Position numbers and translations under genes: made by a program. The notes beneath the pieces were generated by a model. That model did no database searches. It saw only the letters and a program-made list of their open reading frames with translations, and was not told the DNA's origin. Source: Rhodobacterales bacterium (GTDB lineage: Bacteria; Pseudomonadota; Alphaproteobacteria; Rhodobacterales; Rhodobacteraceae). Taken from it: a stretch of DNA of 64,000 bases. Positions 20,319 through 39,561 of this stretch are shown here, piece after piece (the stretch's first letter is position 1; each line of letters starts with the position of its first letter). The stretch is from positions 1-64,000 of the forward strand of contig JANYFE010000078.1 of NCBI GenBank assembly GCA_025362795.1, in the 5' to 3' direction.

Positions 20319-21337
20319 ACCCGCGCGATCTGCCCCGCACGGCCCCCACAATCCGCGACGTCGCACGGGAAGCAGGCGTGTCCATCGGCACCGTGTCCAA
20401 AGCGCTTAATAAGACCGGCGCAATTGCGCCCGAAACGCGCGCCCGGGTGATCGAGGTGGCGGAACGGCTGCAATTCCGCCCCAATACTCTGGCAAAAAGC
20501 CTGCATTCCGGCCTGTCAGGGTCGATCGGCCTGATTTCCAATGACAGCTTTGGTCGCTTCACCATGCCGATCATGGAAGGGTTGGAGCGCGTACTGGCAC
20601 CGCAAGGAATTGGCGTCTTCATGTGCAACGCCACCGACGACCCCGCCCGCGAGGCGGCGCATGTCGAACAGCTGATGGCCAAGCAGATCGACGGCATTGT
20701 TGTGACGGCCCGCCGCTCTGATCGCCGCCCGTCGGTGCATCTGGAAGGCCTCGGCATTCCGGTGATTTACGTCTTTTCCCACTCTGACGACCCCGGTGCC
20801 CTGACCCTGCTGCCGGATGACAAGGGCGGCGCAGAACTTGCGGTCAGTCACCTGCTGCAGATCGGTCGCCGCCGCATCGCCCATGTGACCGGGCCCGAAC
20901 ATTTCGAAGCAGTCCACCTGCGCCGCAAAGGTTATCTTGATGCCCTGTCCACCGTGGACGCCAGCCCGCTGCCGACCCTGAATGGCAAGTGGACCGAGGC
21001 TTGGGGCCGCGATGCCGTAGCCCAGCTTTACGGACCCGGCAAAACCAACCCCGATGCGCTGTTCTGTGGCAATGATCTGATTGCCCGTGGTGCCGCCGAT
21101 GCTTTGCGCGAGTTGGGCCGTTTGGTCCCCGATGATGTCGCCATTGTCGGCTTCGACAACTGGGCGGTGATGGCAGAAGCCTGCCGCCCCGCGCTTACCT
21201 CCATCGACATGAATCTTGCGGGCCTTGGTGCGGAAGCCGGGCGTTGCATGGCCGCGATGATTGGCGGCCAACCCGAACACGGGCAGCGCTTGCTGCCTTG
21301 TACTCTCATCACCCGGGCCTCCACGCTCGGGTACTAA
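20315..21337 (+). CDS. LacI-family transcriptional regulator of the sugar operon
   Basis: A 340-aa repressor-type protein. The N-terminal HTH is clear (TIRDVAREAGVSIGTVSKAL, about 12-31), followed by the hinge region RPNTLAKSLHSG and a periplasmic-binding-protein-like effector domain ending around IDMNLAGLGAEAGRCMAAM. It overlaps permease 2 by 4 nt and precedes the GH127 gene, so it is encoded within the operon it probably controls through the palindromes at 17161 and 17215. The inducer is likely a sugar released by the local hydrolases. Confidence 0.93.
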   Translation: MNPRDLPRTAPTIRDVAREAGVSIGTVSKALNKTGAIAPETRARVIEVAERLQFRPNTLAKSLHSGLSGSIGLISNDSFGRFTMPIMEGLERVLAPQGIGVFMCNATDDPAREAAHVEQLMAKQIDGIVVTARRSDRRPSVHLEGLGIPVIYVFSHSDDPGALTLLPDDKGGAELAVSHLLQIGRRRIAHVTGPEHFEAVHLRRKGYLDALSTVDASPLPTLNGKWTEAWGRDAVAQLYGPGKTNPDALFCGNDLIARGAADALRELGRLVPDDVAIVGFDNWAVMAEACRPALTSIDMNLAGLGAEAGRCMAAMIGGQPEHGQRLLPCTLITRASTLGY

Positions 21338-21348
21338 AGGAGAATACC

Positions 21349-23241
21349 TTGCGGAAATATGCGTCGGTCACATTCAGTGACGTGAAAATCACCGGGCCAT
21401 TCTGGTCGGAACGGCTTGATACCGTGTTGAACAGCACCATCCCCAGCCAGCATCGCCAGCTTGCAAGTTATGGCATGCTGGACAGCCTGAAACTGCCGCA
21501 ACCCGTGCCACCGCTGCGCATTCCCCGCAACCGCCACAACTTCACCACCCAGATTTTCTGGGATTCGGACGTCGGCAAATGGGTCGAGGCTGCCAGCTAT
21601 GCCCTGTCGCACCGCCGCGATCCGGTGGTCGAGGCCCAGATTGAATCCATCGTGGACGATCTCGAAAAGTCGCAAGCCCCCGACGGCTATCTCAACTGCT
21701 GGTATCTGGAACGCGAGCCTGAAAACCGCTGGACCAACCTGCGCGACAACCACGAGTTGTATAACGCCGGTCACATGCTGGAGGGTGCGGTGGCCTATTT
21801 CCACGCCACCGGCCGCGACCGCCACATGCAGATCATGATGCGCTACATGGACCATATCGCCGCCACCTTCGGCCCGAACCCCGGCCAGAAGCGCGGCTAC
21901 TGCGGCCATCAGGAAATCGAACTGGCCCTCGTCAAACTGTACCACGCGACCGGGACCAGGAAATACCTCGACCTCGCCACCTATTTCATCAACGAACGCG
22001 GCAGCCAGCCGCATTACTTTGACATCGAACGCGCGGCGCGGGGCGAGGCACCAGAGACATTCCTGCAAGGCACCTACGAATACAGCCAGTCCCACATTCC
22101 GGTCCGCCAACAAACCAAAGTCGTGGGCCACGCGGTTCGTGCCATGTACATGTACACCGCGATGGCCGACCTCGCCGCTGAACACGATGATGACGGCCTC
22201 AAAATGGCCTGTGAAACCTTGTGGGCCGACGTGACCCGCACCCGCATGTATGTGACCGGCGGCTTTGGCCCCTCGGCCAGCAACGAAGGCTTCACCAAGG
22301 ACTACGACCTGCCCAACGACACCGCCTATGCCGAAACCTGCGCCAGCGTTGCAATGGTGTTCTGGGCGGCGCGGATGCTGAACCTCGACCTTGATGGGCA
22401 ATATGCCGACATTCTGGAACTGGCGCTGTACAACACCTCGCTCGCGGGCCTCAGCCGCGACGGCACCCAGTATTTCTACGACAACAAACTGGATAGCGAC
22501 GGCTCGCATCAACGGTGGGATTGGCACCCCTGCCCGTGTTGCACAATGAACGTCGCCCGTCTGGTCGCCTCCATCGCCGGCTACTTCTACTCCGTCGCGG
22601 ATACCGAAATTGCCGTCCATCTGTATGGCGGCGCTAAAACGACTCTCGACGTGGCTGGCGGCAAAGTCACCCTCACCGAAACCTCAAACTACCCGTGGTC
22701 CGGCGATATCAGTCTCACATTGGACCCGGAAGGCGCTGCCGACTTTACCCTTGCCCTCCGCATCCCCAACTGGACCAAAGGCGCGACCGCCCGCGTCAAC
22801 GGCGCACCGGTGCTGATGACCACCGAACGCGGCTATCTCAAGATCACGCGGCATTGGGCCAAAGGCGACCGCGTGGAACTCTCGCTCCCGATGCCCGCCG
22901 AACGCCTGTATGCCCACCCTGATGTGCGGCAAGACGTGGGCCGCGTTGCCCTGCGCCGGGGGCCACTGGTCTATTGCGTCGAAAGCCATGACATCGTGGG
23001 CCCGGTGGTCCGCATGCGCCTGCCTTCGACGGCAGCGCTGACCTCTGAATGGCGCGGCGATCTGTTGGGCGGCATTACCGTGGTCAAAGCTGACGCGCAG
23101 CTGACGGATGCCGCGAAATGGGGTGCAGCACTTTACCGGGGCACCCCGCCAACCGAAGCGCCATCGCCCCTTGTCGCCGTGCCCTATTACATCTGGTGCA
23201 ACCGGGGCGCCAACCCGATGCAGGTCTGGGTGCAGGAGTAA
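21349..23241 (+). CDS. GH127-family glycoside hydrolase (beta-L-arabinofuranosidase type)
   Basis: A 630-aa enzyme with an (alpha/alpha)6-type N-terminal region and beta-rich C-terminus. The zinc-thiolate site of GH127 is complete: E313, E329, C331, and the pair C397-C398 in CPCCTMNVARL. In the characterised enzyme HypBA1 the corresponding spacing of the two Glu (16) and Glu to Cys (2) is the same. The last Cys is the nucleophile. No signal peptide is seen, so it acts on imported substrates. The start is probably TTG at 21349, since AAAGGAG lies 6 nt upstream; no suitable ATG fits. Family members also act on other beta-L-sugars, so the substrate is not certain. Confidence 0.88.
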   Translation: MRKYASVTFSDVKITGPFWSERLDTVLNSTIPSQHRQLASYGMLDSLKLPQPVPPLRIPRNRHNFTTQIFWDSDVGKWVEAASYALSHRRDPVVEAQIESIVDDLEKSQAPDGYLNCWYLEREPENRWTNLRDNHELYNAGHMLEGAVAYFHATGRDRHMQIMMRYMDHIAATFGPNPGQKRGYCGHQEIELALVKLYHATGTRKYLDLATYFINERGSQPHYFDIERAARGEAPETFLQGTYEYSQSHIPVRQQTKVVGHAVRAMYMYTAMADLAAEHDDDGLKMACETLWADVTRTRMYVTGGFGPSASNEGFTKDYDLPNDTAYAETCASVAMVFWAARMLNLDLDGQYADILELALYNTSLAGLSRDGTQYFYDNKLDSDGSHQRWDWHPCPCCTMNVARLVASIAGYFYSVADTEIAVHLYGGAKTTLDVAGGKVTLTETSNYPWSGDISLTLDPEGAADFTLALRIPNWTKGATARVNGAPVLMTTERGYLKITRHWAKGDRVELSLPMPAERLYAHPDVRQDVGRVALRRGPLVYCVESHDIVGPVVRMRLPSTAALTSEWRGDLLGGITVVKADAQLTDAAKWGAALYRGTPPTEAPSPLVAVPYYIWCNRGANPMQVWVQE

Positions 23242-25723: not shown

Positions 25724-26968
25724 CTAAACCTGCGTTTGATAAGCCCGCTGCCAGCTTTCGGCAACGGATTCCCACGTAAACTTGGCTTCTGCCCGGGCGC
25801 GGGCCTTGGCAGAGATTATGTCGGCGAGGGCCGCATCCTGCGCCAAACGGTCCAATGCCTTTGCCAACCCGGCTACCACGGTTTCGTCGCTTGTGGTCTC
25901 GACAAGAATGGCAGACCCTGCGTCACCCAGCATCGCAGGCCCCCCCCAACGCAAGGCAATCACCGGCAGACCGATCGCCATGGCCTCTTGCATAACGATT
26001 CCGTTTGCCTCTGCCAGCGACGCGAAAAGATAGCCGCGATAGGCGGCATAGGCGGCAAGAAGATCGTCGTGGCTGGCGACCCAGCCTTTGAAGATGACCC
26101 GGTCTTGCAGGCCAAGGCGCACTACCAGTGCGGTCAACTCAGGCCGCTTTTCACCGTCGCCAAAGATATCAAGGCAGATCGTCGGCCCGGCTTTCGCCAC
26201 CGCCCGAATAGCCAGATCGGTCCCCTTGTGATCGACCAGCCGACCGGAACAGACAAAACGCGGGTTCACCCCGGCGTGTTGCAGGCGCGGATTCTGAAAA
26301 ATCGCCGCGCTGACGCCGGAATCGACAACGTCCACCATCCGCTGTTCCGGGCATCCCGCCAAACGGAGCGAGGCCCGCGTGCGTTCGTAGCCTGAAACCA
26401 AAACCGTGTCGAAGCGCAGCTTTTCGCGGAAAGTCCAGCCAAGAACCACCTGCGACACAGCGTGGAGGCGCTCGCGGAACCGGTCTTTCCAGGACATCCG
26501 GCTACGAAACGCCGGGGGATAATAGATGTTGCCGGTCAGCGGACCGAGGACCGCTTTGTAGCCCCTGAGCGGAAAGCGCAATGCAACCGGGGAGACCGGC
26601 GATATGTAATGCAGGATCGGTGTCGCACCCGTTGCGGCCTCTGCGGCGATCATCGGCCGCACTTTGAGGTGGAAATAAATGCTCAGACAGCCCCGCAGCG
26701 GCGCTACCCGCCACATAAAGCGTTGCAGGCCGGTGTCTGGAACGGTGCGCAGCTGCGCCTCTGGCAGGAACAGGCCATGACCCCGGGCTCTGGCGTGGGT
26801 GAACACCACCAGCTCATGCCCCGATTCCCTTAAGAAATCAGCATATTGCTGGCTTTTGATCGCCTCACCCCCGGCGCTGGAACCGAACCGTTCGGAGATC
26901 AGGAAAATGCGGGCCTTTGCGGCGGAGGTATTGGCCAAATCTGCTCCTTTTGGAACTAACGTTCGCAT
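25724..26968 (-). CDS. Glycosyltransferase family 4 (GT-B fold)
   Basis: A 414-aa predicted cytosolic or membrane-peripheral glycosyltransferase. The C-terminal donor-binding half has FVCSGRLVDHKGTDLAIRA, LDIFGDGEKRPEL and the EX7E-like ASLAEANGIVMQEAMAIG, all typical of GT4. The N-terminal acceptor half starts RIFLISERFGSSAGGEAIKS. Sugar and linkage cannot be told. It is the last of four same-strand genes (31922 down to 25724), 13 nt after the preceding glycosyltransferase, and probably builds the same polysaccharide. Confidence 0.88.
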   Translation of the reverse strand: MRTLVPKGADLANTSAAKARIFLISERFGSSAGGEAIKSQQYADFLRESGHELVVFTHARARGHGLFLPEAQLRTVPDTGLQRFMWRVAPLRGCLSIYFHLKVRPMIAAEAATGATPILHYISPVSPVALRFPLRGYKAVLGPLTGNIYYPPAFRSRMSWKDRFRERLHAVSQVVLGWTFREKLRFDTVLVSGYERTRASLRLAGCPEQRMVDVVDSGVSAAIFQNPRLQHAGVNPRFVCSGRLVDHKGTDLAIRAVAKAGPTICLDIFGDGEKRPELTALVVRLGLQDRVIFKGWVASHDDLLAAYAAYRGYLFASLAEANGIVMQEAMAIGLPVIALRWGGPAMLGDAGSAILVETTSDETVVAGLAKALDRLAQDAALADIISAKARARAEAKFTWESVAESWQRAYQTQV

Positions 26969-26981
26969 GAAAGGTCTCTGT

Positions 26982-28301
26982 CTAACTGTCTATCTTAAAG
27001 CTTGGACCGCCTGATCCGTTCTGCGCTGCAACATCGGCGGGGCGCAGGCCCCTCCCGGTTCCAGCGAACAACTGGTACAGCCACGCCGCTTCGACCGCAA
27101 TATCGTGTTCCTTCAGCACTTTCTGGCGGCCCGCCTCGCCCATCCGGGCGCATAGCCCTTGATCACCCAGCAACGCCCTCAGCCGCACCGTCAGGTTTTC
27201 AACATCGCCGGGGGGCACAAGAAAGCCGCTCAGCCCGTCGTCCACCAGTTCCGGGACGCCACCCACCTGGGTCGCTATAACCGGAAGCCGGCTCGCCATC
27301 GCTTCCATCAGCACCACCGGCACTCCCTCGGCAAAACTGGGCAGCACCAGCATGTCTGCATCGTCCAGCAAAGCCGTGACCGCGCTTTCGTCAAGATAGC
27401 CGGCAAATTGGACGGCAGCCTGCACGCCCAGCGCCTTGGCCTGCGCCTCTAGCATATTCCGGGCCGGACCGTCCCCGGCAATGGTCAAATGCGCATTGGG
27501 ATAATCACTTCGCGCGGCGGCAAAAGCCTGCAGCAGCAGTGACACGCCCTTGACCGCGTCAAGCCGTCCCACGAAAACCAGATGGCCGGTAAAGTCCCGG
27601 CGCGGGTGGTGGCCATAGGTTGTTGGCTCCACGCCACAATGAACAATGCGCAGCTTGTCCCAATGGATCTGATCCGAAAACAGCATGACCTGACTGCGGC
27701 AGAAGTGGCTTATGCAGGCAATGAAACCGGCTCGCGCGACTTTGGCATCAATGTGCCACCAACGGGCCTCGAAGAACAGGCTCGGCCCGTGCATGGTGAT
27801 GCTGAAGGGAATGCCGGACAGCTCGCTTGCCAGCATGGTCAGTGATCCGCTGGAATCGCCGAAATGGTTGTGCATGTGCACGACGCCCTGGTCCTGCATG
27901 TGCCGGGCCAGAACGCCAGCCTCCGCGAAATAGAACGCCTGCCACACCAACGCCTTCAAACCCGGCGGGCGTGTCGCAAAGGCCAGGCGCAGCGCCGAAA
28001 ACCACCGCCCCGGGCTTCTGGTCAGCAGGGCAAAATGGGCCGCCAGCAGCCGGCGCGGCGCAAGGGCTGCGTCCATCACACAATACGTCGCTGCCGCCTC
28101 GGCTTGCTGATCTGCACCCACGATTGTCTTGGCCAGCGGGCGCCGCACCGTGCAGGTCAAAACCTTCGCCCCCAACTGCCGCAGCGCCATGATCTCGCGC
28201 TGGATGAAAGTATGCGACACTTTGGGATATTCCCCAGTCACATAGGCAATCGGGCCGGCAAGCGGTTCAGGACGGGCAAATTTTGGATCAGATGGCGACA
28301 T
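26982..28301 (-). CDS. Glycosyltransferase family 4 (GT-B fold)
   Basis: A 439-aa glycosyltransferase. N-terminal YVTGEYPKVSHTFIQREI is typical of exopolysaccharide GT4 enzymes of the colanic-acid type. The donor side has LVFVGRLDAVKGVSLLLQAF, LTIAGDGPARNMLEAQA and LPSFAEGVPVVLMEAMAS. It begins directly after the stop of the preceding gene (TGAATG), so translation is probably coupled. The sugar is unknown. Confidence 0.9.
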   Translation of the reverse strand: MSPSDPKFARPEPLAGPIAYVTGEYPKVSHTFIQREIMALRQLGAKVLTCTVRRPLAKTIVGADQQAEAAATYCVMDAALAPRRLLAAHFALLTRSPGRWFSALRLAFATRPPGLKALVWQAFYFAEAGVLARHMQDQGVVHMHNHFGDSSGSLTMLASELSGIPFSITMHGPSLFFEARWWHIDAKVARAGFIACISHFCRSQVMLFSDQIHWDKLRIVHCGVEPTTYGHHPRRDFTGHLVFVGRLDAVKGVSLLLQAFAAARSDYPNAHLTIAGDGPARNMLEAQAKALGVQAAVQFAGYLDESAVTALLDDADMLVLPSFAEGVPVVLMEAMASRLPVIATQVGGVPELVDDGLSGFLVPPGDVENLTVRLRALLGDQGLCARMGEAGRQKVLKEHDIAVEAAWLYQLFAGTGRGLRPADVAAQNGSGGPSFKIDS

Positions 28302-29264
28302 TCAAGACCCCGCCATTTCCCGGCTCAGTGCCCCACCCTTCCAGCGCGACGCGAACGCTGCCTCGATCTCGGCTATCGCTTGGTGCCTGCCGACCCGCAG
28401 GGCGCGGCGTTGGTAAGCCCGGATGAACTGACGCAACTCGGCATCATCGTGCTGCGGCAACCCTTGCGCCCAAGCCTTGACATAGCCCCACCAGGTCGCC
28501 AGCCCGCCAATAACCAACGGGGGGTGTCCCATGCGGTACAGGCAGGTCGCCATGAAATACCAATAGTCGCTGCCCATGTAGTACTGCCCATAACCATGCC
28601 GCATCCGGCCGGTCAGAATGCCCTTCTGGCTGGCACCCATCGGGCGCAAGTGTTCAAACCGCAGATTCGGGTCATCCCAGCTGCACGCGACCCAGCCCAA
28701 CTGGCGCGATTTGTGGCAGTCGATGGCGTCCCACATCACTTCATGGACAAACCCGCCGATGTCGTTGAAACAGGAAACCCGGTAGAATTTGGTCATCCCG
28801 ACCGACATTTCATCGCCGCATTTCTCGCTGACCAGACGGCCAGCACTGGTGCGGAAATAGGGTTTCCCGCTGCAACTGCCGATCCGCGGGTTGGCGACCA
28901 TCCGCGCCATCAGCCCGCTGAAATATCCCACCGGCAAATCCAGATCGAGATCAAGCTTGCACAGATAGTCAAAGCCCGCAGACCCAACCTGATTCAAGCC
29001 GTAATAGAAGGCCTCGACCACACCCGGCCCCACGGCACGGCTGCCGCGATCCGGTTTGGTGACAATCCTGATCCAGTCGAACCGCCCGGCGTAGTCACGC
29101 AAAATCGCAGGGGTTTCGTCGGTTGACCCGTCATCGACAATGACCCACAGCGCGGGCTGCGCATCCTGTGCCACCACGCTGTCCAGCGTGCGCCGCATAT
29201 AGGCCGCTTCGTTGCGGCAGGGCGTCACCAACAGGTAGCGTCCCGGGTTTGGATCAAAGGACAT
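28302..29264 (-). CDS. Glycosyltransferase family 2 (GT-A fold)
   Basis: A 320-aa enzyme. N-terminal LVTPCRNEAAYMRRTLDSVV and VIVDDGSTDETPAIL are the nucleotide-sugar-binding start of GT2, and the acidic DLDLDLP motif near residue 107 is the metal-binding DxD equivalent. No long transmembrane region is evident, so it probably works at the inner face of the membrane. GGAG lies 8 nt before the ATG at 29264. It is adjacent to the GT4 gene and follows the adenylation/acyltransferase gene by 39 nt. Confidence 0.88.
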   Translation of the reverse strand: MSFDPNPGRYLLVTPCRNEAAYMRRTLDSVVAQDAQPALWVIVDDGSTDETPAILRDYAGRFDWIRIVTKPDRGSRAVGPGVVEAFYYGLNQVGSAGFDYLCKLDLDLDLPVGYFSGLMARMVANPRIGSCSGKPYFRTSAGRLVSEKCGDEMSVGMTKFYRVSCFNDIGGFVHEVMWDAIDCHKSRQLGWVACSWDDPNLRFEHLRPMGASQKGILTGRMRHGYGQYYMGSDYWYFMATCLYRMGHPPLVIGGLATWWGYVKAWAQGLPQHDDAELRQFIRAYQRRALRVGRHQAIAEIEAAFASRWKGGALSREMAGS

Positions 29265-29303: not shown

Positions 29304-31922
29304 TCACGGGAAATACATCCGTCTCAGGCGCAGGAAACCATAGGCGAAGGCCGATAGAAATGCCGCAAGCGTGACCATCAGCCCGACGGTTTCAGATATG
29401 CCCAGATGCACCAGGATATCTTTGACCGGGATGACGATACGATGAAAGGCAAAGATCGGCAGCGCCAATCCACCCACCAGGATCAGCGCCTTTACGACAG
29501 ATTTGGGAACGGCTGGCAAATCGGCCCAGCGCCGGATGGCTTGCATCAAAACACCTGCAAAACACAGGGCGAAACAGAAATCGACGGCCCAGCCCAGAAC
29601 CGTATTGAACAAAGCAGACGAGCGGCTGGAAAAGACGGCAGCGCCATAAATCTCAAAACTGCACAGCGCCAGAAACGCAAAGCCCACTGCGCCAAATGCC
29701 ACCAAATTGCGGGCGGCCCGGTCGCCATCGGGCTGACGCTGCAACCAGAACCCGACAGCGATCCCCAGAAACGTCAGCGGACCGGTGCGGAAAATGCTGT
29801 ATTTTGCCACCAGCAGCAGACGCGGCCATTCCAGCACAGATGACAGCGGGTCAGCCGGCAAAAGCGCCACCACCAGCCAACCCACGGGCCATAACACCAA
29901 ACCGATGGCGACGCTCCACAGCAAGGGATCGCGGCGGCGGGCCAGAAAACCGAGGCAGGGCAGCGCGACCGCCAAAGCAATGACATAATAGGCCAGCACG
30001 TTGTAAAAAGATTCGGCAATGGTTCGGCCATCGATGCGGCTGCCGCTCAGCATATCAAGTGTCAGCGACACAATGGCGGTCAGCACCAGACCCGACAGAA
30101 CCAGAGTCAACGAGGATCGCAGCCTTTTCGCCACCGAGGCCCGTTGTGCCGGCAGACGCGGTAACATGAAAAAGCCAAGGCCAATACCAAAGACCGACGC
30201 AAACCCCGCAGTACCCATCCGGTAGAAGATGCTCAGCACCGGATCCACCAGATCCCCAATCTTCAGCCTTTGGGTCAGACCCGGCCCCCAATGCGACAAA
30301 AGCACGGTGAGCACCATAAAGCCGCGCGTCGCGTTGATCGCCCAGCTTTCAATGGTGGTCTTTGGCAGCGCCTCAGTCTTGACCGACCCCGAGATCCCAT
30401 CTGTGCTGGCCTCTTGCGTGCAATCTTCCAGCAATGCTATTTCCTGCACGCTGCGGCCTTCAAGCGTCGCCCGCACCGCAGGACGGCTGAAGCCCAGTTC
30501 CATCACCAGCCCGATTTGCACCGCGCTCAGGCTATCGCCGCCGACAAGGTAAAAGTTCTGATCCGCCGTGATCGAAATATCGCCCACCACGGTTTTCCAC
30601 GCGTCCGTCAGCCGCTGTTCGGTGGGCGTAAGCTTCGGCATGGCTTCTGGCGCCACATTGGTGCGCGGCAGGGTCGCAGCGGCACCGGCTATGTAGGTTT
30701 CGCTCAGCGACTTGCGCCGCACTTTGCCGGTGTCCGTAGTCGGCAACCGGTCCAGCACCTGAACCTTCAACGCGCCGCTCTGCACTATACCATGCCGCTT
30801 CAGCGCCAACTCTGCCGCCGCCACCAAAAGGTCGCGTCCCTCGCCAGCAGAGTGCGCCAAGCTTAGCAGAACCGTTTCACCGCGCAGAGGGTCGGGCACC
30901 GCAGCCACCGCAAAATCACCCGGCTCCTTAACCAGCGCCCGAATGTCGCGCTCCAGCGCCTCGGCCCCCAGTTTTACCCCGGCAATGTTGATCTGATCGT
31001 CCAGCCGGCCCAGATACCACAGCACTCCATTTCGGATCTCGCCACGGTCGCGGGTGTGCAGCCAGCCGTCTGCATCGACGATGGGTTGCAACACGCCGCT
31101 TTCGTCCACGATGCCAAGCGCCACATGATCGCCGCGAATGCAAATCTCGCCGTCCGGCCCGATCCGCAGCTCTGTCCCCGCGCCGCCGCTGCCAACCGAT
31201 TCCAGCATGTCGCCGTCATTTTGTGACACATCCAGAAAGGTTGTCCGCGACGCCTCGGTCAGACCATAATGCTGAACGATGCGCGCGTTCGGAAACAACG
31301 CCTTCATCGCGGCCTTTTCTGCACCGGACATCGACTGGCTGCCGATCTCGATCCAGCGCACCTTTTGCCCCGCCGCACCGATGGTGTCGGGACTCGCAAG
31401 GATGATCCGCCACAGACTGGGGACCGCCGATATGGCATTGATCTCTCCGGCCACCAGCATGTCGCGAATTTCCAACGGATCAAAGCGTTCGGGCAGGTAG
31501 AAAGCCCCCCCCACCGCCGAAATCGCCCGAACCCGCCCCAACCCAAAGGAAAACGTCACTGGCACGCCGATATACTCGCGCACCGACCCATCCAGCCCCA
31601 TCGCGGCATTCAGGCGGCTGACCGCGTCGGCAAGGTTGCGATGGCTCAGCAACACCGGCTTGGGCCTGCCCTCGGTCCCCGATGTCAGAACAATCTGGGC
31701 CGGATCGTCCGAAAGCTTTGGGTGATGTTCAAGACGTCCCCAGCCAAGGCGCGCCCCAACCTGCACCAGGTCGCTGGCAAAAAGACCGGGATGCAAGCCC
31801 GTCGGACTGGCATCCTTGACGATGGCAAATACCGTTCCCGCGTCATAAAGCCGAAAGACATTTTCCACGTAGTCCAGAGAATTCGCAGCAGATAAAAACA
31901 CCAAAGACATGCGATCTTGCAT
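29304..31922 (-). CDS. Fusion of adenylation domain, acyl carrier domain and membrane acyltransferase
   Basis: An 872-aa protein with three parts. Residues 1-410 are an AMP-forming adenylation domain: LTSGTEGRPKPV (79-90), HYGLTEAS (218-225), GRLDDQINIAGVKLGAEALE (305-324) and the catalytic Lys K400 in PTTDTGK. Residues about 430-500 are a phosphopantetheine carrier with S464 in VGGDSLSA. Residues about 525-872 are an integral-membrane domain with about ten helices that opens ATRGFMVLTVLLSHWGPG, like acyltransferase-3/OpgC proteins (RG and TM1 His). The design suggests activation of an acid, loading on the attached carrier and transfer to a polysaccharide, a one-chain version of the DltA-DltC-DltB logic. 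This is inference. The N-terminus is short for an adenylation domain. The start could also be the ATG at 31910. Confidence 0.85.
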   Translation of the reverse strand: MQDRMSLVFLSAANSLDYVENVFRLYDAGTVFAIVKDASPTGLHPGLFASDLVQVGARLGWGRLEHHPKLSDDPAQIVLTSGTEGRPKPVLLSHRNLADAVSRLNAAMGLDGSVREYIGVPVTFSFGLGRVRAISAVGGAFYLPERFDPLEIRDMLVAGEINAISAVPSLWRIILASPDTIGAAGQKVRWIEIGSQSMSGAEKAAMKALFPNARIVQHYGLTEASRTTFLDVSQNDGDMLESVGSGGAGTELRIGPDGEICIRGDHVALGIVDESGVLQPIVDADGWLHTRDRGEIRNGVLWYLGRLDDQINIAGVKLGAEALERDIRALVKEPGDFAVAAVPDPLRGETVLLSLAHSAGEGRDLLVAAAELALKRHGIVQSGALKVQVLDRLPTTDTGKVRRKSLSETYIAGAAATLPRTNVAPEAMPKLTPTEQRLTDAWKTVVGDISITADQNFYLVGGDSLSAVQIGLVMELGFSRPAVRATLEGRSVQEIALLEDCTQEASTDGISGSVKTEALPKTTIESWAINATRGFMVLTVLLSHWGPGLTQRLKIGDLVDPVLSIFYRMGTAGFASVFGIGLGFFMLPRLPAQRASVAKRLRSSLTLVLSGLVLTAIVSLTLDMLSGSRIDGRTIAESFYNVLAYYVIALAVALPCLGFLARRRDPLLWSVAIGLVLWPVGWLVVALLPADPLSSVLEWPRLLLVAKYSIFRTGPLTFLGIAVGFWLQRQPDGDRAARNLVAFGAVGFAFLALCSFEIYGAAVFSSRSSALFNTVLGWAVDFCFALCFAGVLMQAIRRWADLPAVPKSVVKALILVGGLALPIFAFHRIVIPVKDILVHLGISETVGLMVTLAAFLSAFAYGFLRLRRMYFP

Positions 31923-32212: not shown

Positions 32213-32989
32213 GTGACGCCTGTAATTTCATTTCGACCTGGCAGCGGCACCGCGGAAAGCGGGGCTGTCGTTGCGGTCAATTTTGCCACCCGTGCCGCAC
32301 TTTTCGGCGATATCGAAGGGCGGCTGCGGGCGGGTCAGGGGTTTGCACTCGCGACGCTCAATCTGGATCATCTGGTCAAGCTGCGCCGCCTTCCGGCCTT
32401 TTTAGCAGCCTATGTCCAGCAGACCCATGTGGTGGCCGATGGCAATCCGGTTGTCTGGCTGTACCGCCTTGCCGGTCATCCGGTGGACCTGATGCCGGGT
32501 TCGGAACTGATTGAACCCCTGGTGGCGATTGCTGCCAGACTTGGCGTTCCGATTGCCCTGTTTGGTGCCACGGAACAAACACTTGCGGACGCGGCGGCGC
32601 GGCTGCAATCCGCCAACCCCGGTCTGAATGTGGCTGCCTGCGTCGCCCCGCCGCAGGGCTTCGATCCGGCGGGGCCAGCCGGGACCGCAGCCTTGCAGCA
32701 GCTTGCCGCTTCGGGCGCAGGGTTGTGCTTTGTCGCTCTCGGCGCACCAAAGCAGGAAATCCTCGCGGCGCGGGGTCTGGCCATGTCGCCGGGCATCGGA
32801 TTTGTCTCGATCGGCGCGGGATTGGATTTCATTGCTGGCAGCCAGACCAGAGCCCCGGTCTGGGTGCGGCGGTTGGCTTTGGAATGGGCCTGGCGCATGA
32901 TGCTCAGCCCGCGCCGGCTGGCCCGGCGTTACCTCGACTGTATCCTGATACTACCAGGTCTTGCGATAAATGCTTGGCGGACCCGCTAG
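32213..32989 (+). CDS. WecG/TagA/CpsF-family glycosyltransferase (GT26)
   Basis: A 258-aa enzyme of the group that adds a ManNAc-type or glucosyl sugar to a lipid-linked intermediate. Typical pieces are ATLNLDHLVKLRR, the catalytic-site VADGNPVVWLYRLAG, LFGATEQTLADAAARL, FVALGAPKQEIL and the C-terminal LEWAWRMMLSPRRLARRYL membrane-associating tail. It starts at GTG (32213) after GAAGGGG. It is divergent from the adenylation/acyltransferase gene with 290 bp between them, which probably holds both promoters. Confidence 0.9.
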   Translation: MTPVISFRPGSGTAESGAVVAVNFATRAALFGDIEGRLRAGQGFALATLNLDHLVKLRRLPAFLAAYVQQTHVVADGNPVVWLYRLAGHPVDLMPGSELIEPLVAIAARLGVPIALFGATEQTLADAAARLQSANPGLNVAACVAPPQGFDPAGPAGTAALQQLAASGAGLCFVALGAPKQEILAARGLAMSPGIGFVSIGAGLDFIAGSQTRAPVWVRRLALEWAWRMMLSPRRLARRYLDCILILPGLAINAWRTR

Positions 32990-33487: not shown

Positions 33488-33526
33488 AAACCAAGGGGCC
33501 GCGGATTTTCCGCGGCCCCTTGGTTT
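33488..33526. terminator. Strong bidirectional hairpin
   Basis: AAACCAAGGGGCCGCGG (33488-33504) pairs perfectly over 17 bp with 33510-33526, with a 5-nt ATTTT loop. A/T ends make it a terminator for the small gene (+) and for the RTX gene (-), whose stop codon begins inside it. Confidence 0.85.
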
Positions 33527-36474
33527 CAGATTTCGATGGTCATCCAGTTCATGTCGCTGGCATGCATCCCGACCAGCGTGACAGCATTGGTCGCATCGCC
33601 GATGGTCAGGTTGCCCTGCGCGTCTTCGCTGACCATCGCCATCAAAGCATCATGTGACACAATGCCCTTGCTGGTGAAGTCCAACACATCGTCGCTGGTA
33701 AAGTCCATGATCTGGTCATGGCCCTGCCCAACAGAGATATAGAACCGGTCGCTGCCGCTGCCGCCGGTCAGAACATCGTCACCCTTGCCGCCCAAAAGCG
33801 TATCATCCCCTGACCCGCCAGACAGGCTGTCATTGCCGCGGCGGCCCATAAGATAGTCGTTGCCACCAGCGCCATCGACCACGTCATTCTGCAGGCGGCC
33901 TTCAAAGCGGTCATTGCCAGACGTGGCGATGATACCATGCACCGATGTTGCCACGCTGCTCAGCGCCAGACTTGCGGCAATCGGGTCTGTGGTGGTCGGG
34001 GAGTTTGGCAGGTGGAAGGTGTTGCCAATCACCCCCAAAGCCGACACGTTATAATCGCACAGGAGAGAGTTGGGATCGAGTCCCAGCGCCACACCCAGTG
34101 CAGATAGCGGGTCGATGGCCCGGATTGTGACACCGGCTCCGGTAGTATCGTCAACCTGAACCAGCTCCGCATCCGCACCGTCAATCAGATCACCCTGCAC
34201 CGATATGTGCAGCGTTATGGGGCCGTCCGGAACCTTGTTCAGCAGATCGCTCAGGCTTTTGGTGACATTGCCGTCAAAGCGGAAGGATTCAATGCCGTAG
34301 ATCAGGTCGGATGTGCCCGCACCGGTCAACCGATAGCCGCTGCCCTCTGCAATCAAGGTATAGCCGTTTGCGCTTCCGGCCAGTACCAGAACATCGTCAC
34401 CGGCGCCGCCGATTACGGTATCCTGACCAGTGCCGCTGGTGATTGTATCATCGCCTGCACCGCCCACCAAACTGTTGTCGCCGCTGGTACCCGTCAGGGT
34501 CTTGCCGGGCACGTCTCCCATGTGCAGCAGGCTGTTCAGCGTGACGATGACATTGCCGTCAAAGCGGAAGGTTTCGACACCTGTCACGTAATGCGCAGTG
34601 TTGGGGCCGATCAGGCGATAGCCGTCACCCTCCGCGACAAGCGTATAGGATTGCGGCCCACCGGCCAGAACCAACACATCCTGACCACCTTCGCCGGCGA
34701 TGGCGTCGTGGCCCTTGCCCGATACCAGCACATCATTGCCGTTGCCGCCGATCAGAAAATCATCCTTGTCGGTGCCGGTCAGCGTGCCGCCGGTATCGCC
34801 TGCGGTTTTGATCACACCCTGCTGATATTGCACCCCGCCACCATCGCCAAACCACGATGCGGAATGGGCGTTCAGATCAGCCAGCAGATCAGCCCTTGGG
34901 TTATGGTCGCCAATTGCGCTCAACAGGCCCCATGCCCCGAATTTGTTGGCGGCGGCGACATCCCCGAACTGCATGAACGGGCCGTCGCTGATGGAAGCCC
35001 AGGCGTCCCACAACTGGTGATACAGCGTGGCCATGTCGGCACTGCGCACGTATTTCGACAAGAAGTCGGTCAGCGTCGTCAGATCCGTCGCGCTCAGCCC
35101 GCTCAGCCCAAAACTTTGCAGCAGATGCTGCCCGCCCTCGTAGGCGATGAAGTCCAACCCGAACTGGTCCGCGACGGCCTTGCTGGCCTGCCAGCGGCCC
35201 ATGATCTGCGGGATGGAACCGGAATAGTTCGGATCCTCCATCCGGGCGGTCAACCAGGCGGCGGCATCAGTCGGTGACGCCTTGATATGCGCGATGAGTT
35301 CGGCGCGAAGATCGGTTTTCACCATCGTCTGCGCACCGAAATAGGTCGTCACCGCAAGGGAATCAAAGACTGACCCCGGCGCGACATAACCATTGGGGTC
35401 CATTTTGAGCCACAATGGCGCTGTCAGAAGCCAGGTCGCATTGCTTACGCTGCCGGTCTGGATGCCCAGAACATTGTCCACCCGGCTGTCAGCATCGCTG
35501 CCAAACACGTTGTCCCAGATTAAAGCCGATTTGGTCGCCAACATCGCGTTAAAGTCGATATAGGCCCGCGAATCCGTCGAACCCCACACTGCTTTCGCCT
35601 GATCCTGCAGCCAATGCGTCTGATCAAAGCTCCAGTTCCAGGTTTCGTTGCTGTATTCCACATGCACCTTCAGCGCCGGGTTCAGGTGGTCGTGGACGTA
35701 GCTTGCGAACTTGCGGATATAGTCCTCGTCTGCGCCCGCCGGCATGTTGAACCAGGGCTCGGTCCCGGTCTGGTTGGCCAGTTGCACCATCACCTCAACC
35801 GGAACGCCGCCCTGCATCCAGCTGGCATCGCCGACGGTTGGCCGATCTGCCCAGCTGGCATGGGTTGCGCCGTTGGTCTCCATCCAGTCCATAAAGCGCA
35901 GTTGCCGTGCATCCTGCACGACCGACAGCCACTCCGGATTGAAAATCTCGCCCGCGGCATGCAGCGCCTCGTACTTTTGCGGCACAAGCGAAATATCGCG
36001 AATGTAATTGCCGTTGTGGTTGGGGTCAGTCACCGTAATATCCAACCCCATCGTTCCGCCCGCAGTGTTCTGCACCACAATGCGGCCCGGTTCAGAGCTG
36101 AGGATTTTCATATCCCCCGACAGTTTCAGCGTGCCCTCACCCTCATAGGTCAGCACATATATCCCGGTCCGCGACGCGGCTGCCGTCGGGTTGTCCGCGC
36201 TGTCGCCCCAGGCCCAGATCGTGCCCACCGCCGTCATCCCCGGCGGTATCTTGGTCGGCCATCCGTCGGCGTCCAGGTAGCCACCGCTGCCCAGCGCATC
36301 GTTCTTCATGGCCGTCCAGTTGATCTTGTCATGGGCTACGAAGGGACGCGACTCGTGCATCAGGTCCAGAAATGGACGCTCCGTTGATGAATCCGCCAGA
36401 CCGGACAAGCCGAAGGCCAGCGTGGGGTCTTTAAGTCCTGTTCCTGCAAGCACTGTTGTATCCTCACCCGGCAT
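33526..36474 (-). CDS. RTX-repeat protein with N-terminal glycosidase-like domain, type I secretion candidate
   Basis: A 982-aa protein. Residues about 30-550 form a conserved domain with NE in VEYSNETWNW (N276-E277) and a later Glu in IAYEGGQHL (E446), the pattern of acid/base and nucleophile in clan GH-A (beta/alpha)8 glycosidases; catalysis is inference. Calcium-binding GGxGxDxxx repeats occur in three blocks (about 567-605, 660-700, 851-912). The first two are each followed by a module reading GYRL, TGVETFRFDG. There is no signal peptide, and the last residues (MNWMTIEI) resemble type I secretion tails. The T1SS genes at 55715-60320 are the obvious route. Start ATG 36474 follows GGGGG. 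It is a close paralogue of the gene at 46280. Confidence 0.85.
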   Translation of the reverse strand: MPGEDTTVLAGTGLKDPTLAFGLSGLADSSTERPFLDLMHESRPFVAHDKINWTAMKNDALGSGGYLDADGWPTKIPPGMTAVGTIWAWGDSADNPTAAASRTGIYVLTYEGEGTLKLSGDMKILSSEPGRIVVQNTAGGTMGLDITVTDPNHNGNYIRDISLVPQKYEALHAAGEIFNPEWLSVVQDARQLRFMDWMETNGATHASWADRPTVGDASWMQGGVPVEVMVQLANQTGTEPWFNMPAGADEDYIRKFASYVHDHLNPALKVHVEYSNETWNWSFDQTHWLQDQAKAVWGSTDSRAYIDFNAMLATKSALIWDNVFGSDADSRVDNVLGIQTGSVSNATWLLTAPLWLKMDPNGYVAPGSVFDSLAVTTYFGAQTMVKTDLRAELIAHIKASPTDAAAWLTARMEDPNYSGSIPQIMGRWQASKAVADQFGLDFIAYEGGQHLLQSFGLSGLSATDLTTLTDFLSKYVRSADMATLYHQLWDAWASISDGPFMQFGDVAAANKFGAWGLLSAIGDHNPRADLLADLNAHSASWFGDGGGVQYQQGVIKTAGDTGGTLTGTDKDDFLIGGNGNDVLVSGKGHDAIAGEGGQDVLVLAGGPQSYTLVAEGDGYRLIGPNTAHYVTGVETFRFDGNVIVTLNSLLHMGDVPGKTLTGTSGDNSLVGGAGDDTITSGTGQDTVIGGAGDDVLVLAGSANGYTLIAEGSGYRLTGAGTSDLIYGIESFRFDGNVTKSLSDLLNKVPDGPITLHISVQGDLIDGADAELVQVDDTTGAGVTIRAIDPLSALGVALGLDPNSLLCDYNVSALGVIGNTFHLPNSPTTTDPIAASLALSSVATSVHGIIATSGNDRFEGRLQNDVVDGAGGNDYLMGRRGNDSLSGGSGDDTLLGGKGDDVLTGGSGSDRFYISVGQGHDQIMDFTSDDVLDFTSKGIVSHDALMAMVSEDAQGNLTIGDATNAVTLVGMHASDMNWMTIEI

Positions 36475-36980
36475 GGCATCCCCCAATTCCTGCTTCGAGA
36501 CATGACCAGACTTGGCAGCTGATCATATTTTGACTGTTCCGGATCCATTCCCGGAGAACTGTCATATAAGCCGAACATAATAGGCCGTATATTGGCCTGA
36601 ATGTGTCAGACTCGTGATCGAAGCACGGCATTTGAGTGCAGCCCTTTGATGACATATTATTTCAGAGGCTGCAAAGAACGGACTCAACCCCGCAGCCCGT
36701 AGTGGCGACACTTTGCCAAGGGCGCTATATATTGAGCAGTTTCCCGCCTAGAAACAGCCCCACTGGGAATAGGGACAATTCAACAATAGTGCCATTTTCC
36801 GCTGTGATCAGGGCTCGGCGAGATTCGGCTCAGTGCGAAAGCGGCGAATCCGGGCCATACAATCGGCCTTTGCCGTGCAGATTTGGGGATTCCCTGCGAC
36901 AATCTGATGATCTGCACAACCAGCGCGACCATGCAGAACGGGTGGCGATGCCGGATCACGAACCCGACAAAATCCGCACC
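36475..36980. other. 506-bp upstream region of the RTX gene
   Basis: No gene was recognised. The stretch is A+T-richer than its surroundings around 36520-36800, with candidate promoter-like TATTAT and TTATAT on the minus strand near 36560-36585, and an inverted repeat at 36582-36598. It is long for this compact locus and probably holds the regulated promoter of the RTX gene. Confidence 0.5.
36582..36598. promoter_or_regulatory. Inverted repeat AGGCC-N7-GGCCT
   Basis: AGGCC (36582-36586) and GGCCT (36594-36598) are separated by an A/T-only-plus-G spacer (GTATATT). It lies about 110 bp before the RTX gene start and could be a regulator site. There is no matching copy before the paralogue at 48310. 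Confidence 0.3.
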
Positions 36981-37958
36981 TTATTTGATGTGCTGCGACG
37001 CGATGGCGCGAATTCTGATTCGGATGCTGCTGTGCCACCGCGAGAAGCCGAACCAGCGGGTCAGCTTTTCACCAACATACAGGCCGGTTCCGAAACGCTT
37101 CATGCCAAACCGCCAAACCGCAAGCCGGTTCACCACGCGCAGCCGCAGCTGCTCCACAAGGCCGATCGCACGGGCCGGTGCGGTCGGTGTATAGCCGCGG
37201 CTTTGCATCAGCGTTGCGGCTCTGGATTCAAGCTGCGCGATCTCTTGCGGATGTGACAGGCGGCGCCATTGCTCGACCAGCGAGGCATCCGGTGCGCGGT
37301 AAGTCGTAGAGCGGTGAAACTCCAGCACCTTCGGGTCATAGGCCAGCCCCAGGAACTGGCACAGCCGGATAAGCTCTGCTTCGACATTCAGAATGAACGT
37401 CTCATAGCGCAGTTCAAACACCTGCCCGGCCACAAGGCCCGTCCCGCCGCTGTCCCATTCCGTCTCGGTCTGAATCCAATGGGCCACGCCGTGATAAAGT
37501 GTCCCCGCCCAGCCCATCCCGATGGACGAACGCGCGACGTCGCGGGGATCGCGCAACAGGTGCAGGACTCTGACCGTCGGCAGCGCCTTGCGCAACTTGC
37601 CAAAATTGCGGTGCAGGTTGATGATCAGGATCTGCTTCCCCGAACCCTGCGCCGCGATCTGCCGCAGCATCTCCATCAGCAAATCCAGCCCGTCCAGCCG
37701 ATCTGGCAACACCAGAGTCATCGACTGAAAAACACGGTCGTTGCGCAGCGCCACAAGATCATAGCGCCAGCCCCCCGCCAGCGTCGGGTCTTCGGTGATA
37801 AAGTCGAACAGAAAGTCCGCCTCGCCGGGATTGAAAATCTCGCCATGCTCTCGCAGCATCACTTTCAGCAAGGTTGTCCCAGACCGCAGTGACCCGTACA
37901 GGAAAACAATCTCACCCGCCAAACCGGGTGCGAGTTCCGTCGTAACCATCAGCCCCAT
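36981..37958 (-). CDS. Sulfotransferase-family protein
   Basis: A 325-aa P-loop protein of the PAPS-dependent sulfotransferase superfamily. The 5'-phosphosulfate loop is YGSLRSGTTLL (21-31) and the 3'-phosphate motif is LHLLRDPRDVARSS (132-145). It begins 4 nt after the exosortase stop on the same strand, so the two are probably co-transcribed. The acceptor is unknown, but the setting suggests a polysaccharide sugar. ATG 37949 is an alternative start. Confidence 0.85.
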   Translation of the reverse strand: MGLMVTTELAPGLAGEIVFLYGSLRSGTTLLKVMLREHGEIFNPGEADFLFDFITEDPTLAGGWRYDLVALRNDRVFQSMTLVLPDRLDGLDLLMEMLRQIAAQGSGKQILIINLHRNFGKLRKALPTVRVLHLLRDPRDVARSSIGMGWAGTLYHGVAHWIQTETEWDSGGTGLVAGQVFELRYETFILNVEAELIRLCQFLGLAYDPKVLEFHRSTTYRAPDASLVEQWRRLSHPQEIAQLESRAATLMQSRGYTPTAPARAIGLVEQLRLRVVNRLAVWRFGMKRFGTGLYVGEKLTRWFGFSRWHSSIRIRIRAIASQHIK

Positions 37959-37962
37959 CAGT

Positions 37963-39561
37963 TCAAGCCCCGGGCACGAAACGCGGCAGCGGCACCACCA
38001 CGGCACGCATGGCATCCTTCAGCCGCGCTTCCGCTGTGGCGTCACTTTCGCCTTTGGCTATCGGTGTGATCAGGCGCACCAATGCCCCGTCACTTCGGCC
38101 GGTTTTCACCTTGCTCAGCGTCATCACCACTTTGGCGTAGTACGACGAAGCCGTCTGCACGCCCTGCTGATCGTACCAGTAATAGACCACCATCCGCTCA
38201 AGCCCCTTCTGGATGATGACCCGGTTCAGCGTGAATGGGGCACCCGGGGTGTCGGCCGGCGCGTCAATCGGCTCCAGAGACGAGATTTCCCAGCCTGCAG
38301 ACGGCAAGCAGATGGTCGGCGAATGGGTGCCGCCATCCATCTGATCGCGGTACCAGGCAATGAACAGATCGACGCCCTGCGCCGCACCCGGCTTGGTCAG
38401 GGTGACAGAGTGGTAGTCATCCGCCGCCAGAACTTTGGCCACCTTCGGGTCCAGCCGGAACGGGGCAGTCGAAGTCCAATCGCCCAGTTGCGCCGGAAAG
38501 GCAAAAAAGGACTCACGCTCCACCGATGCCATCTGTCGCGCGGGGATCACCTGCCAGGCCAACGCACCCATTGCCATCAGCGCTGTCACCCCGATCAAAG
38601 CCCGCGACGGCTCGATCAGACGCAGGCGGGCCAGTTGCGGCCCCAGCCCGTCAAAGTCCAGGTCAAGTGCGGCGGCCAGACTCATCTTCTTGGGATTGAG
38701 GAAAAGCATGAATCGCGCCAACCCGAACAGGATCAGAACGCAGGCAACAAAGATCACCCAACCTTCCATAAGATGGGTCAGACCTTCGACAAATTCGACG
38801 CCATACCGGTCGACCACCGCACCCGCGATGGCGATCCGCACAGAGTTCATAAAGACGGTGATCGGCGCGGCGGACACCAGAAGCACGGCCTTGTGCCATA
38901 AAGGGCCTTTATACAGCACCGAGAAGATGTAGGAAAATGACAGGATGGGGAACAGATAGCGCAGCCCGGAACAGGCCTCGGCCACATGCAGTTTGTAGAC
39001 GCCCAGATCAATGATGTTGCCGTCCAGAAAGACCGGCACATTCAGCAGGTCAAGAAAGTACACGCCCAGATGCGAAGAGACGCCCTGCAGATAGGTCGAC
39101 AGCCCATAGTACAACACGCTTGGCAGCGGCAGCATATAGACAAGGTGCAAGACCGGCGGCCAGAACTGCTTGCCCTGCTTCCAGCCAAAGCTCAGTAAAA
39201 TCAATCCCCCGATCCACAGGATCATCGCGTAAGCCGCGAAGTCCGAAATCTGGATCAACCGCCCGACACCGCCCAGAACCACCGCAGCAAAAATGACCGC
39301 CACGCCCGCGCCCCGGTCTGTCACCGGGCCCAGCAGCACCGGAACCCGCTTCAGATGGCGCAAGAACAGGAACGTCGACAGGATCGGGATCAGCGGGCCA
39401 TGACTGTATTCTGGCAACTGCCAGGCCGAAAGCAGCGCGGCAACGCCGGTCTGTAAATAGACCCCCGCCGACAACACCGCGATAACCAGCAGCACCACGC
39501 CCCAAGTCTGCGTGGTGCCCCGGTAGGACGCAGGCTGAACCATCGAATCCGCAACCGACAT
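37963..39561 (-). CDS. xrtD: Exosortase with C-terminal EpsI domain (XrtD type, VPLPA-CTERM)
   Basis: A 532-aa inner-membrane protease/transpeptidase-like enzyme. The N-terminal part (1-290) has about eight helices and the catalytic triad Cys-Arg-His: C197 in VAEACSGLRYLFP, R242 in NSVRIAIAG and H263 in LTHLMEGW. Residues about 335-520 form a periplasmic EpsI-like domain with HSPTICLPSAGWEI (C418). Exosortases cut and reattach proteins bearing CTERM tails; two such proteins with VPxPA motifs are in this window (24443 and 55048). The xrtD name rests on that pairing and on the fused architecture. A sulfotransferase gene follows at 4 nt. Confidence 0.9.
   Translation of the reverse strand: MSVADSMVQPASYRGTTQTWGVVLLVIAVLSAGVYLQTGVAALLSAWQLPEYSHGPLIPILSTFLFLRHLKRVPVLLGPVTDRGAGVAVIFAAVVLGGVGRLIQISDFAAYAMILWIGGLILLSFGWKQGKQFWPPVLHLVYMLPLPSVLYYGLSTYLQGVSSHLGVYFLDLLNVPVFLDGNIIDLGVYKLHVAEACSGLRYLFPILSFSYIFSVLYKGPLWHKAVLLVSAAPITVFMNSVRIAIAGAVVDRYGVEFVEGLTHLMEGWVIFVACVLILFGLARFMLFLNPKKMSLAAALDLDFDGLGPQLARLRLIEPSRALIGVTALMAMGALAWQVIPARQMASVERESFFAFPAQLGDWTSTAPFRLDPKVAKVLAADDYHSVTLTKPGAAQGVDLFIAWYRDQMDGGTHSPTICLPSAGWEISSLEPIDAPADTPGAPFTLNRVIIQKGLERMVVYYWYDQQGVQTASSYYAKVVMTLSKVKTGRSDGALVRLITPIAKGESDATAEARLKDAMRAVVVPLPRFVPGA

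Follow-up and report, generated by a model that had tools for sequence, protein, structure and literature searches.

A gene on the minus strand of a Rhodobacterales contig (family Rhodobacteraceae; GenBank assembly GCA_025362795.1, contig JANYFE010000078.1, positions 1 to 64,000, hereafter "the window", 64,000 nucleotides in all) joins a short adenosine monophosphate (AMP)-forming adenylation (A) domain, a carrier domain and a ten-helix membrane domain in one conserved frame. We put the probability at about two in three that its product is a self-loading transmembrane acyltransferase (TmAT), in which the A domain loads an acid on the carrier, the carrier arm feeds the TmAT domain and an exported glycan is acylated. 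The gene and its parts are located as follows:

29304..31922, minus strand: A-carrier-TmAT fusion gene, 872 amino acids plus stop; 33 rows (the window and 32 relatives) aligned at full length
30687..31922, minus strand: short AMP-forming adenylation domain, residues 1-412; PF00501, E 4.5e-28
30408..30617, minus strand: carrier domain, residues about 436-505; PF00550, E 1.4e-4; S464 at 30531-30533
29307..30368, minus strand: predicted 10-helix TmAT domain, residues 519-872; AlphaFold2 and Foldseek
30291..30326, minus strand: R533-x10-H544, the Arg/His motif of acyltransferase-3 (AT3) proteins in transmembrane helix (TMH) 1; Arg in 33 of 33 rows, His in 32 of 33

A first-pass annotation of this DNA had described one 872-residue frame with these three domains, and such a frame is indeed present, together with the motifs it had named (TSGTEG at residues 80-85, HYGLTEAS at 218-225, K400, and GGDS with S464). 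Relatives were collected by a contig scan with two peptide patterns (RWIEIGSQ and [NK]ARIV[QM]HY), of which the best 80 of 83 were kept; 40 of these 80 loci are labelled window-type, and 32 of the 40 entered alignments A2 and A3. The eight others are cut (L033, L071), a near copy (L040), broken in frame (L057, L058) or equipped with extra carriers (L063, L088, L104). All 32 share the domain order and can be aligned to the window from end to end, with identities of 30-56%; a frameshift, a joining of two genes or a sequencing error is ruled out, as the 33 rows share the full chain. Within the alignment K400, S81, G82, T83, G85, H218, R226, S464, D463, R533 and W545 are invariant. Pfam finds AMP-binding (residues 65-270) and PP-binding (436-478) in the window protein and, with an E-value limit of 0.1, nothing in the rest. 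If translation began at an upstream ATG at 32231, the frame would have 975 amino acids; the start near 31922 is preferred, because the relatives align from about there and because the added stretch overlaps an opposite-strand WecG-type gene (32213-32989).

The A-carrier-TmAT architecture is real, rare and patchy. Hosts of window-type loci include Rhodobacterales, Parvularculaceae, Emcibacteraceae, Sphingosinicellaceae, Chlorobiaceae, a cyanobacterium, a planctomycete and gammaproteobacteria. The culturable marine species Roseovarius pacificus and R. halotolerans are among the relatives with the gene. In a profile search that does not depend on the two patterns, the window's own family yields 12 genomes with the module out of 394, and a sample drawn across the phylum 2 out of 398, the window's genome being included in both counts. 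Ten of the 11 other family members combine A domain, carrier and a membrane domain with R-x10-H, four of them window-type and six AT3-type (a sister form, "type II", described below), and the eleventh is cut at a contig end. Six of these 11 relatives had already come up, as identical DNA, in the pattern scan, and the profile used (A4) was built from loci such as those six; the remaining five (L108, L111, L116, L117, L118) are new, and all have the three parts. The other 15 sampled genomes of the window's genus gave weaker matches only (best 9.4e-19), and with the window-type profile only the window itself matched among 289 genomes of the class at E up to 1e-5; the searches with profiles A3, A4 and A5 scored at most 3 to 7 candidates per genome. 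Plasmid records give three matches, in none of which 80% of the query is covered at a single place. The first lacks any annotated feature, and the others are labelled "AMP-binding protein" and "fatty acid--CoA ligase family protein". In a Rhodobacteraceae metagenome-assembled genome (MAG; L060:6154-7971) the stretch after the carrier may be a transposase.

The membrane domain is the part of the protein that Pfam leaves unassigned. Its AlphaFold2 model, built from the 33 rows, has a predicted local distance difference score (pLDDT) of 94.2 and a predicted TM-score (pTM) of 0.91, and ten membrane helices are counted from the helix list. Among the best 50 of 397 Foldseek matches in the PDB, human HGSNAT occupies ranks 1-4 (probability 1.00, TM-score 0.49-0.55, E 8e-3 to 8e-2), and the fifth match drops to a probability of 0.25. 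HGSNAT belongs to the TmAT superfamily, which takes in AT3 (PMC12423673). An unrelated transporter is unlikely, since transporters among the same 50 matches reach at most 0.30 versus 1.00 for HGSNAT.

The signature residues of TmAT proteins, taken from section 6 of PMC12423673 and placed on helices with the AlphaFold2 model, are largely retained. Besides the Arg of TMH1 and its His at +11, Phe and Gly of FxxxxG in TMH2 and the Gly of TMH6 are each found in 33 of 33 rows, and the aromatic position of TMH9 is Tyr in 25 and Phe in 8, including the window. In TMH3, a basic residue stands at domain position 81 in 25 of the 33 rows and at position 84 in 23; the strict R..R..P of ordinary AT3 proteins occurs in 0 of 32 window-type rows scanned. 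Searches with sequence models and profiles gave the following: four of the 33 rows match PF01757 at E up to 1 (best 1.2e-8) and the window does not, OpgC (PF10129) is not among the 15 families that match any row at E up to 1, an MBOAT (DltB-type) match is absent from the Pfam results for the window and the 33 rows, and a sequence search of the PDB with the membrane profile returned two G protein-coupled receptor chains only (E 0.03-0.05). Because the predicted fold and most signature residues agree, a divergent member of the TmAT (AT3/HGSNAT) superfamily is supported, one that fails the Pfam models for AT3 and OpgC. The earlier proposal of an OpgC/AT3-like domain is supported at the level of the superfamily, through fold, residues and relatives, and not for OpgC or for a Pfam acyltransferase family. 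In 30 of 33 rows Lys and Arg are more numerous in loops of the N-terminal side (narrowly in the window, 13 versus 11), a charge pattern that fits a cytoplasmic location of A domain and carrier.

The A domain has the hallmarks of the ANL superfamily (SGT motif, YGxTE and catalytic Lys), with Y219, G220, T222 and E223 invariant in the 33 rows beside K400. Its short N-terminus, already pointed out in the first-pass annotation, is genuine: about 90 N-terminal Pfam profile positions are missing, 64 residues standing in for the first 154. The short start is common to the family, with the SGT motif near residue 68-93 where found. This form is not unique by itself, because NCBIfam holds a similarly short kind, the 362-position MenE model PRK07824.

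The pocket residues, assigned by sequence alignment only, read as those of an enzyme for one small, polar, non-alpha-amino acid that most or all of the family would use. Asp235 of linear gramicidin synthase (LgrA), which we take from the nonribosomal peptide synthetase (NRPS) code to be the residue that holds the alpha-amino group, aligns to Gly127 of the window, and Gly is found there in 80 of 80 rows. D-alanine is therefore disfavoured as the acid by the alignment to LgrA. Polar residues at positions aligned to the acid pocket are nearly invariant as well, whatever the partner type: R130, E192, H218 and R226 in 80 of 80 rows and R132 in 79. Two of these positions, E192 and H218, fall within the peptide patterns of the scan. 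In the five relatives found by the profile search only, R130, R132, R226 and E192 are each retained in 5/5 and H218 in 3/5. The near solved structures (oxalyl-CoA synthetase, malonyl-CoA ligase, 4-coumarate ligase and the McyG A domain with its peptidyl carrier protein, A-PCP) are compatible with a small polar acid and not decisive. Among annotated neighbour gene clusters, none common to many loci makes an obvious acid.

A different role would be that of a fatty-acid loader for the production of an acylated lipid, with a fatty-acyl-acyl carrier protein (ACP) synthetase as its A domain. The plasmid relative annotated as a fatty acid--CoA ligase speaks for it, as does the NCBIfam ranking, in which the top model is a long-chain ligase; its 115 bits lie far under the cut-off of 476. 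For the window protein and four relatives (both membrane types and the hexapeptide type described below), not one of the 25 top-ranked NCBIfam models reaches its cut-off. The near-invariantly polar set R130, R132, R226, E192 and H218 suits a small polar acid instead, and we regard the fatty-acid loader as very improbable.

The carrier of the window scores 22.4 bits against PF00550, compared with a threshold of 20.8, and the Ser of GGDS that would bear the phosphopantetheine arm (S464) is kept in all 33 rows, as is D463. In three Chlorobiaceae loci an Sfp/HetI-like phosphopantetheinyl transferase gene lies 72, 153 and 99 base pairs (bp) upstream on the same strand; that of L048 matches PF01648 at 4.4e-18 and TIGR00556 just above the cut-off. 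A weaker relative lies 7.6 kb from the L103 gene.

Seven frames contain 2-4 carriers (L108, L063, L071/L115, L116, L104 and L088; L071 and L115 are one piece of DNA, so that six sequences are distinct), and in each a TauD/TfdA-type dioxygenase gene lies directly upstream on the same strand. Those of these loci that are on the A-domain tree fall in two separate parts of it. L069 and L101 also have such an upstream dioxygenase gene, their frames being cut before carriers can be counted; in L096 the dioxygenase adjoins on the other strand of a cut frame, and in L056, with one carrier, it lies about 5 kb away. Hydroxylation of carrier-bound substrates is a known theme in NRPS systems, and by analogy the acid may be hydroxylated on the carrier by the TauD-type enzyme in the tandem-carrier forms. 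The first carrier of L088 and of L104 looks degenerate (GGDL and GGDP).

The same A and carrier domains are found with other partners. In type II they are joined to another membrane domain, and all 26 sequences used (alignment A5, from 30 tree rows labelled II, with L075 and L076 omitted as short or cut, and L089 and L094 also omitted) match PF01757 at E up to 0.01 (best 8e-28). In five loci (L093, L098, L100, L102, L103) the partner is a soluble C-terminus read as serine-acetyltransferase-like; that of L093 matches Hexapep at 3.4e-8 and serine acetyltransferases of the PDB at 3e-14. The hexapeptide form is a possible cytoplasmic, carrier-fed acyltransferase. A Gemmatimonadota MAG (L094:3528-5951) has the same two domains joined to a thioesterase (4.4e-19). 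On the A-domain tree the partner type changes at fewest 8 times, with L094 counted as type II there and kept apart from it in the neighbour counts (29 loci); the strongly supported branches force fewer changes. The A domain and carrier appear to be an exchangeable donor part, and what its partners have in common is an acyl thioester.

The type II membrane profile in turn finds 9 distinct places at E up to 1e-10 in the 289 class and 398 phylum genomes, and all 9 have a carrier and an A domain from a second A-domain family, which is of ordinary length. Eight are fused in one frame (L137, L138 and L140-L145; four of the eight in one family of the class, f62). On four of these fusions Pfam finds AMP-binding and Acyl_transf_3 in 4/4; PP-binding reaches the gathering score in L137 and L144, falls short of it in L140 and is unlisted in L138, where a GGDS site is recognised by eye. 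The ninth is split (L146; L147:3795-6771): an AMP-binding gene ends in a carrier-like stretch, and the listed start of the AT3 gene lies 8 bp inside that end. The carrier of L147 was detected by a custom profile, not by Pfam. Every type II membrane domain in this sample came with A domain and carrier.

As to the donor, the most conserved TmAT residues bind acyl-CoA (coenzyme A), as stated in section 6 of PMC12423673. The TmAT domain might draw on acyl-CoA as other AT3 proteins do: the A domain would then only activate the acid, the carrier would be a way-station or relic, and the acid would arrive at the membrane domain as acyl-CoA. Consistent with this are the best NCBIfam scores of the A domain, which go to acyl-CoA ligases, the retained Arg of TMH1 and the basic residues of TMH3 in most window-type rows. 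The carrier does not look like a relic, S464 and D463 being invariant, the carrier occurring in 2-4 copies in some relatives and adjoining a phosphopantetheinyl transferase in three others; moreover, two A-domain families keep a carrier ahead of an AT3-type membrane domain. The Asp of the TMH1 DxxR motif, part of the CoA site, is lacking from 32 of 33 rows of the window type and from 26 of 26 of type II, and present in 12 of 16 ordinary AT3 controls from related genomes (18 were taken, the motif was picked in 16, and the picks for L132 and L136 look mistaken). R..R..P is found in 11 of the 16 controls and in 0 of 25 type II rows scanned, and type II has Leu for the Phe of TMH2 in 24 of 26. Taken together, the residues suggest a changed donor site in type II and, more weakly, in the window type. 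We consider acyl-CoA use by the fusion distinctly unlikely, and a carrier-linked donor, as put forward in the first-pass annotation, is the best reading, the donor step itself being deduced.

Several observations nevertheless weigh against a carrier-fed TmAT. For the donor, the review PMC9558356 favours acyl-CoA for AT3 proteins, data on CmmA, TmaT and OatA supporting acyl-CoA and not ACP as the donor. CoA-site loss is not established for the window type, because most of its rows keep the TMH3 basic residues; "CoA-site loss goes with fusion" was accordingly rejected as a clean rule. The TMH1 Asp is Asn in the window and present in a single row; PMC12423673 reports that the AT3 protein OacB can do without it and that HGSNAT cannot. 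The split-gene relative keeps DxxR and RxxR; L146 was still rejected as an unfused, CoA-using control, as it overlaps a separate A-carrier gene. For the fold, the best Foldseek E-value is 8.4e-3 (HGSNAT, TM-score 0.55) and none reaches 0.001, the window's membrane domain has no Pfam acyltransferase match, window-type and type II profiles compare weakly (probability 5%), and the full-length model (pTM 0.54) places the domains relative to each other without confidence. For arming and substrate, the single PF01648 match in the window's genome is an AcpS-like frame, so named by reading of the frame, and two of the five new relatives have Asn in place of H218, a residue that hardly varies among the loci found by pattern. 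AcpS arms DltC in D-alanylation (PMC9338922).

A self-loading TmAT would work in four steps. A phosphopantetheinyl transferase, for which the AcpS-like enzyme is the only candidate found in the genome, would arm S464. The cytoplasmic A domain would then use adenosine triphosphate (ATP) to activate a small polar carboxylic acid, probably one without an alpha-amino group, and load it on the carrier as a thioester, as its invariant catalytic residues suggest. Fold and fusion point to a third step, in which the carrier arm would enter the cytoplasmic mouth of the fused TmAT domain instead of acyl-CoA and present the thioester near R533 and H544. Finally, the acyl group would be passed to an acceptor outside the membrane, which to judge by the neighbourhood is most likely an exopolysaccharide sugar made by the surrounding cluster.

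A wider proposal, which we hold tentatively and at somewhat less than even odds, is that TmAT branches gave up free acyl-CoA for an attached, self-loaded carrier, that this cassette is exchangeable across at least three unrelated folds (TmAT, serine-acetyltransferase-like hexapeptide and thioesterase), and that the acid of the tandem-carrier forms is hydroxylated on the carrier by the upstream dioxygenase before membrane transfer.

The evidence for a glycan acceptor is the gene neighbourhood. The following genes lie around the fusion gene:

28302..29264, minus strand: family 2 glycosyltransferase, next downstream, 39 bp gap; PF00535, E 4.1e-14
26982..28301, minus strand: GT4 glycosyltransferase (EpsE-like), abutting; PF00534, E 1.1e-43; best NCBIfam model EPS_EpsE, 5.9e-67, below cut-off
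25724..26968, minus strand: GT4 glycosyltransferase; PF13692, E 1.3e-22
32213..32989, plus strand: WecG/TagA/CpsF glycosyltransferase, divergent neighbour; PF03808, E 1.5e-42
37963..39561, minus strand: VPLPA-CTERM exosortase XrtD, same polysaccharide region; TIGR04152, 603 bits versus a cut-off of 400

Three glycosyltransferase genes thus follow the fusion gene closely on its own strand (gaps of 39, 0 and 13 bp), and elsewhere in the region lie export genes, sulfotransferases, a gene of the GDP-mannose pyrophosphorylase type and a Wzy_C protein. Within the available stretch, recognised polysaccharide genes, glycosyltransferases included, are present in 32 of 40 window-type loci (29 of the 34 of at least 15 kb), XrtD in 14 and sulfotransferases in 15; the counts use one Pfam-tested representative per cluster and miss genes in unannotated clusters. 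For the window type a glycan acceptor is likely on these grounds, and polysaccharide acylation, as suggested at the outset, fits it better than the sister type, where such genes occur in 11 of 29 loci. The acceptor might instead be a lipid, a lipid-linked precursor or another envelope molecule beside which the polysaccharide genes are incidental. In favour are the 18 of 29 type II loci with no recognised polysaccharide gene in the available stretch, a count that also weighs against the main reading, and some Rhodobacter and Tabrizicola loci, which adjoin a DUF4175 gene, a pyridoxal phosphate (PLP) decarboxylase and a ParB-type gene. The tightly spaced glycosyltransferase genes of the window and the window-type counts (32 of 40 loci, 14 with XrtD) argue the other way and make an acceptor other than exopolysaccharide unlikely, if worth keeping in view.

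The polysaccharide region has further features of its own. XrtD (37963-39561) holds a DUF3485/EpsI domain in the same chain. Two large RTX calcium-repeat proteins are encoded among the polysaccharide genes, at 33526-36486 (between the WecG-type gene and the exosortase) and at 46280-48310. The sulfotransferase-type genes at 36981-38015 and 51154-51999 suggest a sulfated product. Beside the region, a GH127 beta-L-arabinofuranosidase-type gene (21244-23241) lies between a LacI-type regulator and a sugar ABC transporter ATPase.

Descriptions of an adenylation-carrier-AT3/TmAT protein were not found in the PMC literature among the matches listed, subscription papers lying mostly outside that scope. 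The words "adenylation" and "AMP-binding" have zero occurrences in the text of PMC9558356, and "adenylation" has zero in the TmAT paper (PMC12423673) and the OafB-fold paper. PMC13032640, which names all three Pfam families, was rejected as a prior description, as the part seen merely tabulates oatA and dlt genes.

If the carrier-fed reading is true, a self-activating TmAT family would be a natural counter-example to the view that AT3 proteins take acyl-CoA, and the choice of donor would be directly testable, S464A being expected to abolish transfer. It would also provide a one-chain tool for placing chosen acids on exported glycans.

Among known systems, the XrtA-associated acyl-CoA ligase (TIGR03098) shares with the fusion AMP-forming chemistry and an exosortase setting and matches the A domain at 1.3e-27, although with 96.5 bits versus a cut-off of 592 and over the A domain only of a 517-position ligase model. 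NRPS-like A-PCP proteins (McyG, LgrA) share the A-carrier order: McyG A-PCP heads the structural matches of the full model, and the family profile has its best PDB match in LgrA. In contrast to these, the fusion has a shortened A domain, Gly at the Asp235 position and no condensation domain, and it ends in a C-terminal membrane transferase. With the AT3/TmAT proteins OafB, OatA and HGSNAT it has in common the ten-helix fold, R-x10-H in TMH1, FxxxxG in TMH2, the Gly of TMH6 and the aromatic residue of TMH9, and it differs in the A domain and carrier in front and in the missing TMH1 Asp. The AT3 fusions named in the available part of PMC9558356 are with SGNH and alanine racemase domains.

The closest parallel in logic is the Dlt system, in which AMP-forming activation, a carrier thioester and a membrane enzyme that takes the carrier arm are combined as well (PMC9338922). 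The union in one chain of functions that are split over DltA, DltC and DltB, as described in the first-pass annotation, is borne out in the order of the three domains; D-alanine is unlikely as the substrate. Whereas Dlt uses three proteins, the fusion is one chain; its membrane part is a putative TmAT and DltB an MBOAT, which PMC12423673 (section 5) regards as structurally distinct; its A domain lacks the Asp for an alpha-amino group; and its gene is set in exopolysaccharide loci. If the carrier-fed reading is true, this suggests that MBOAT (Dlt) and TmAT enzymes would have reached carrier feeding independently. In outline, the evidence supports a fusion protein that works like the Dlt system and is not a member of it.

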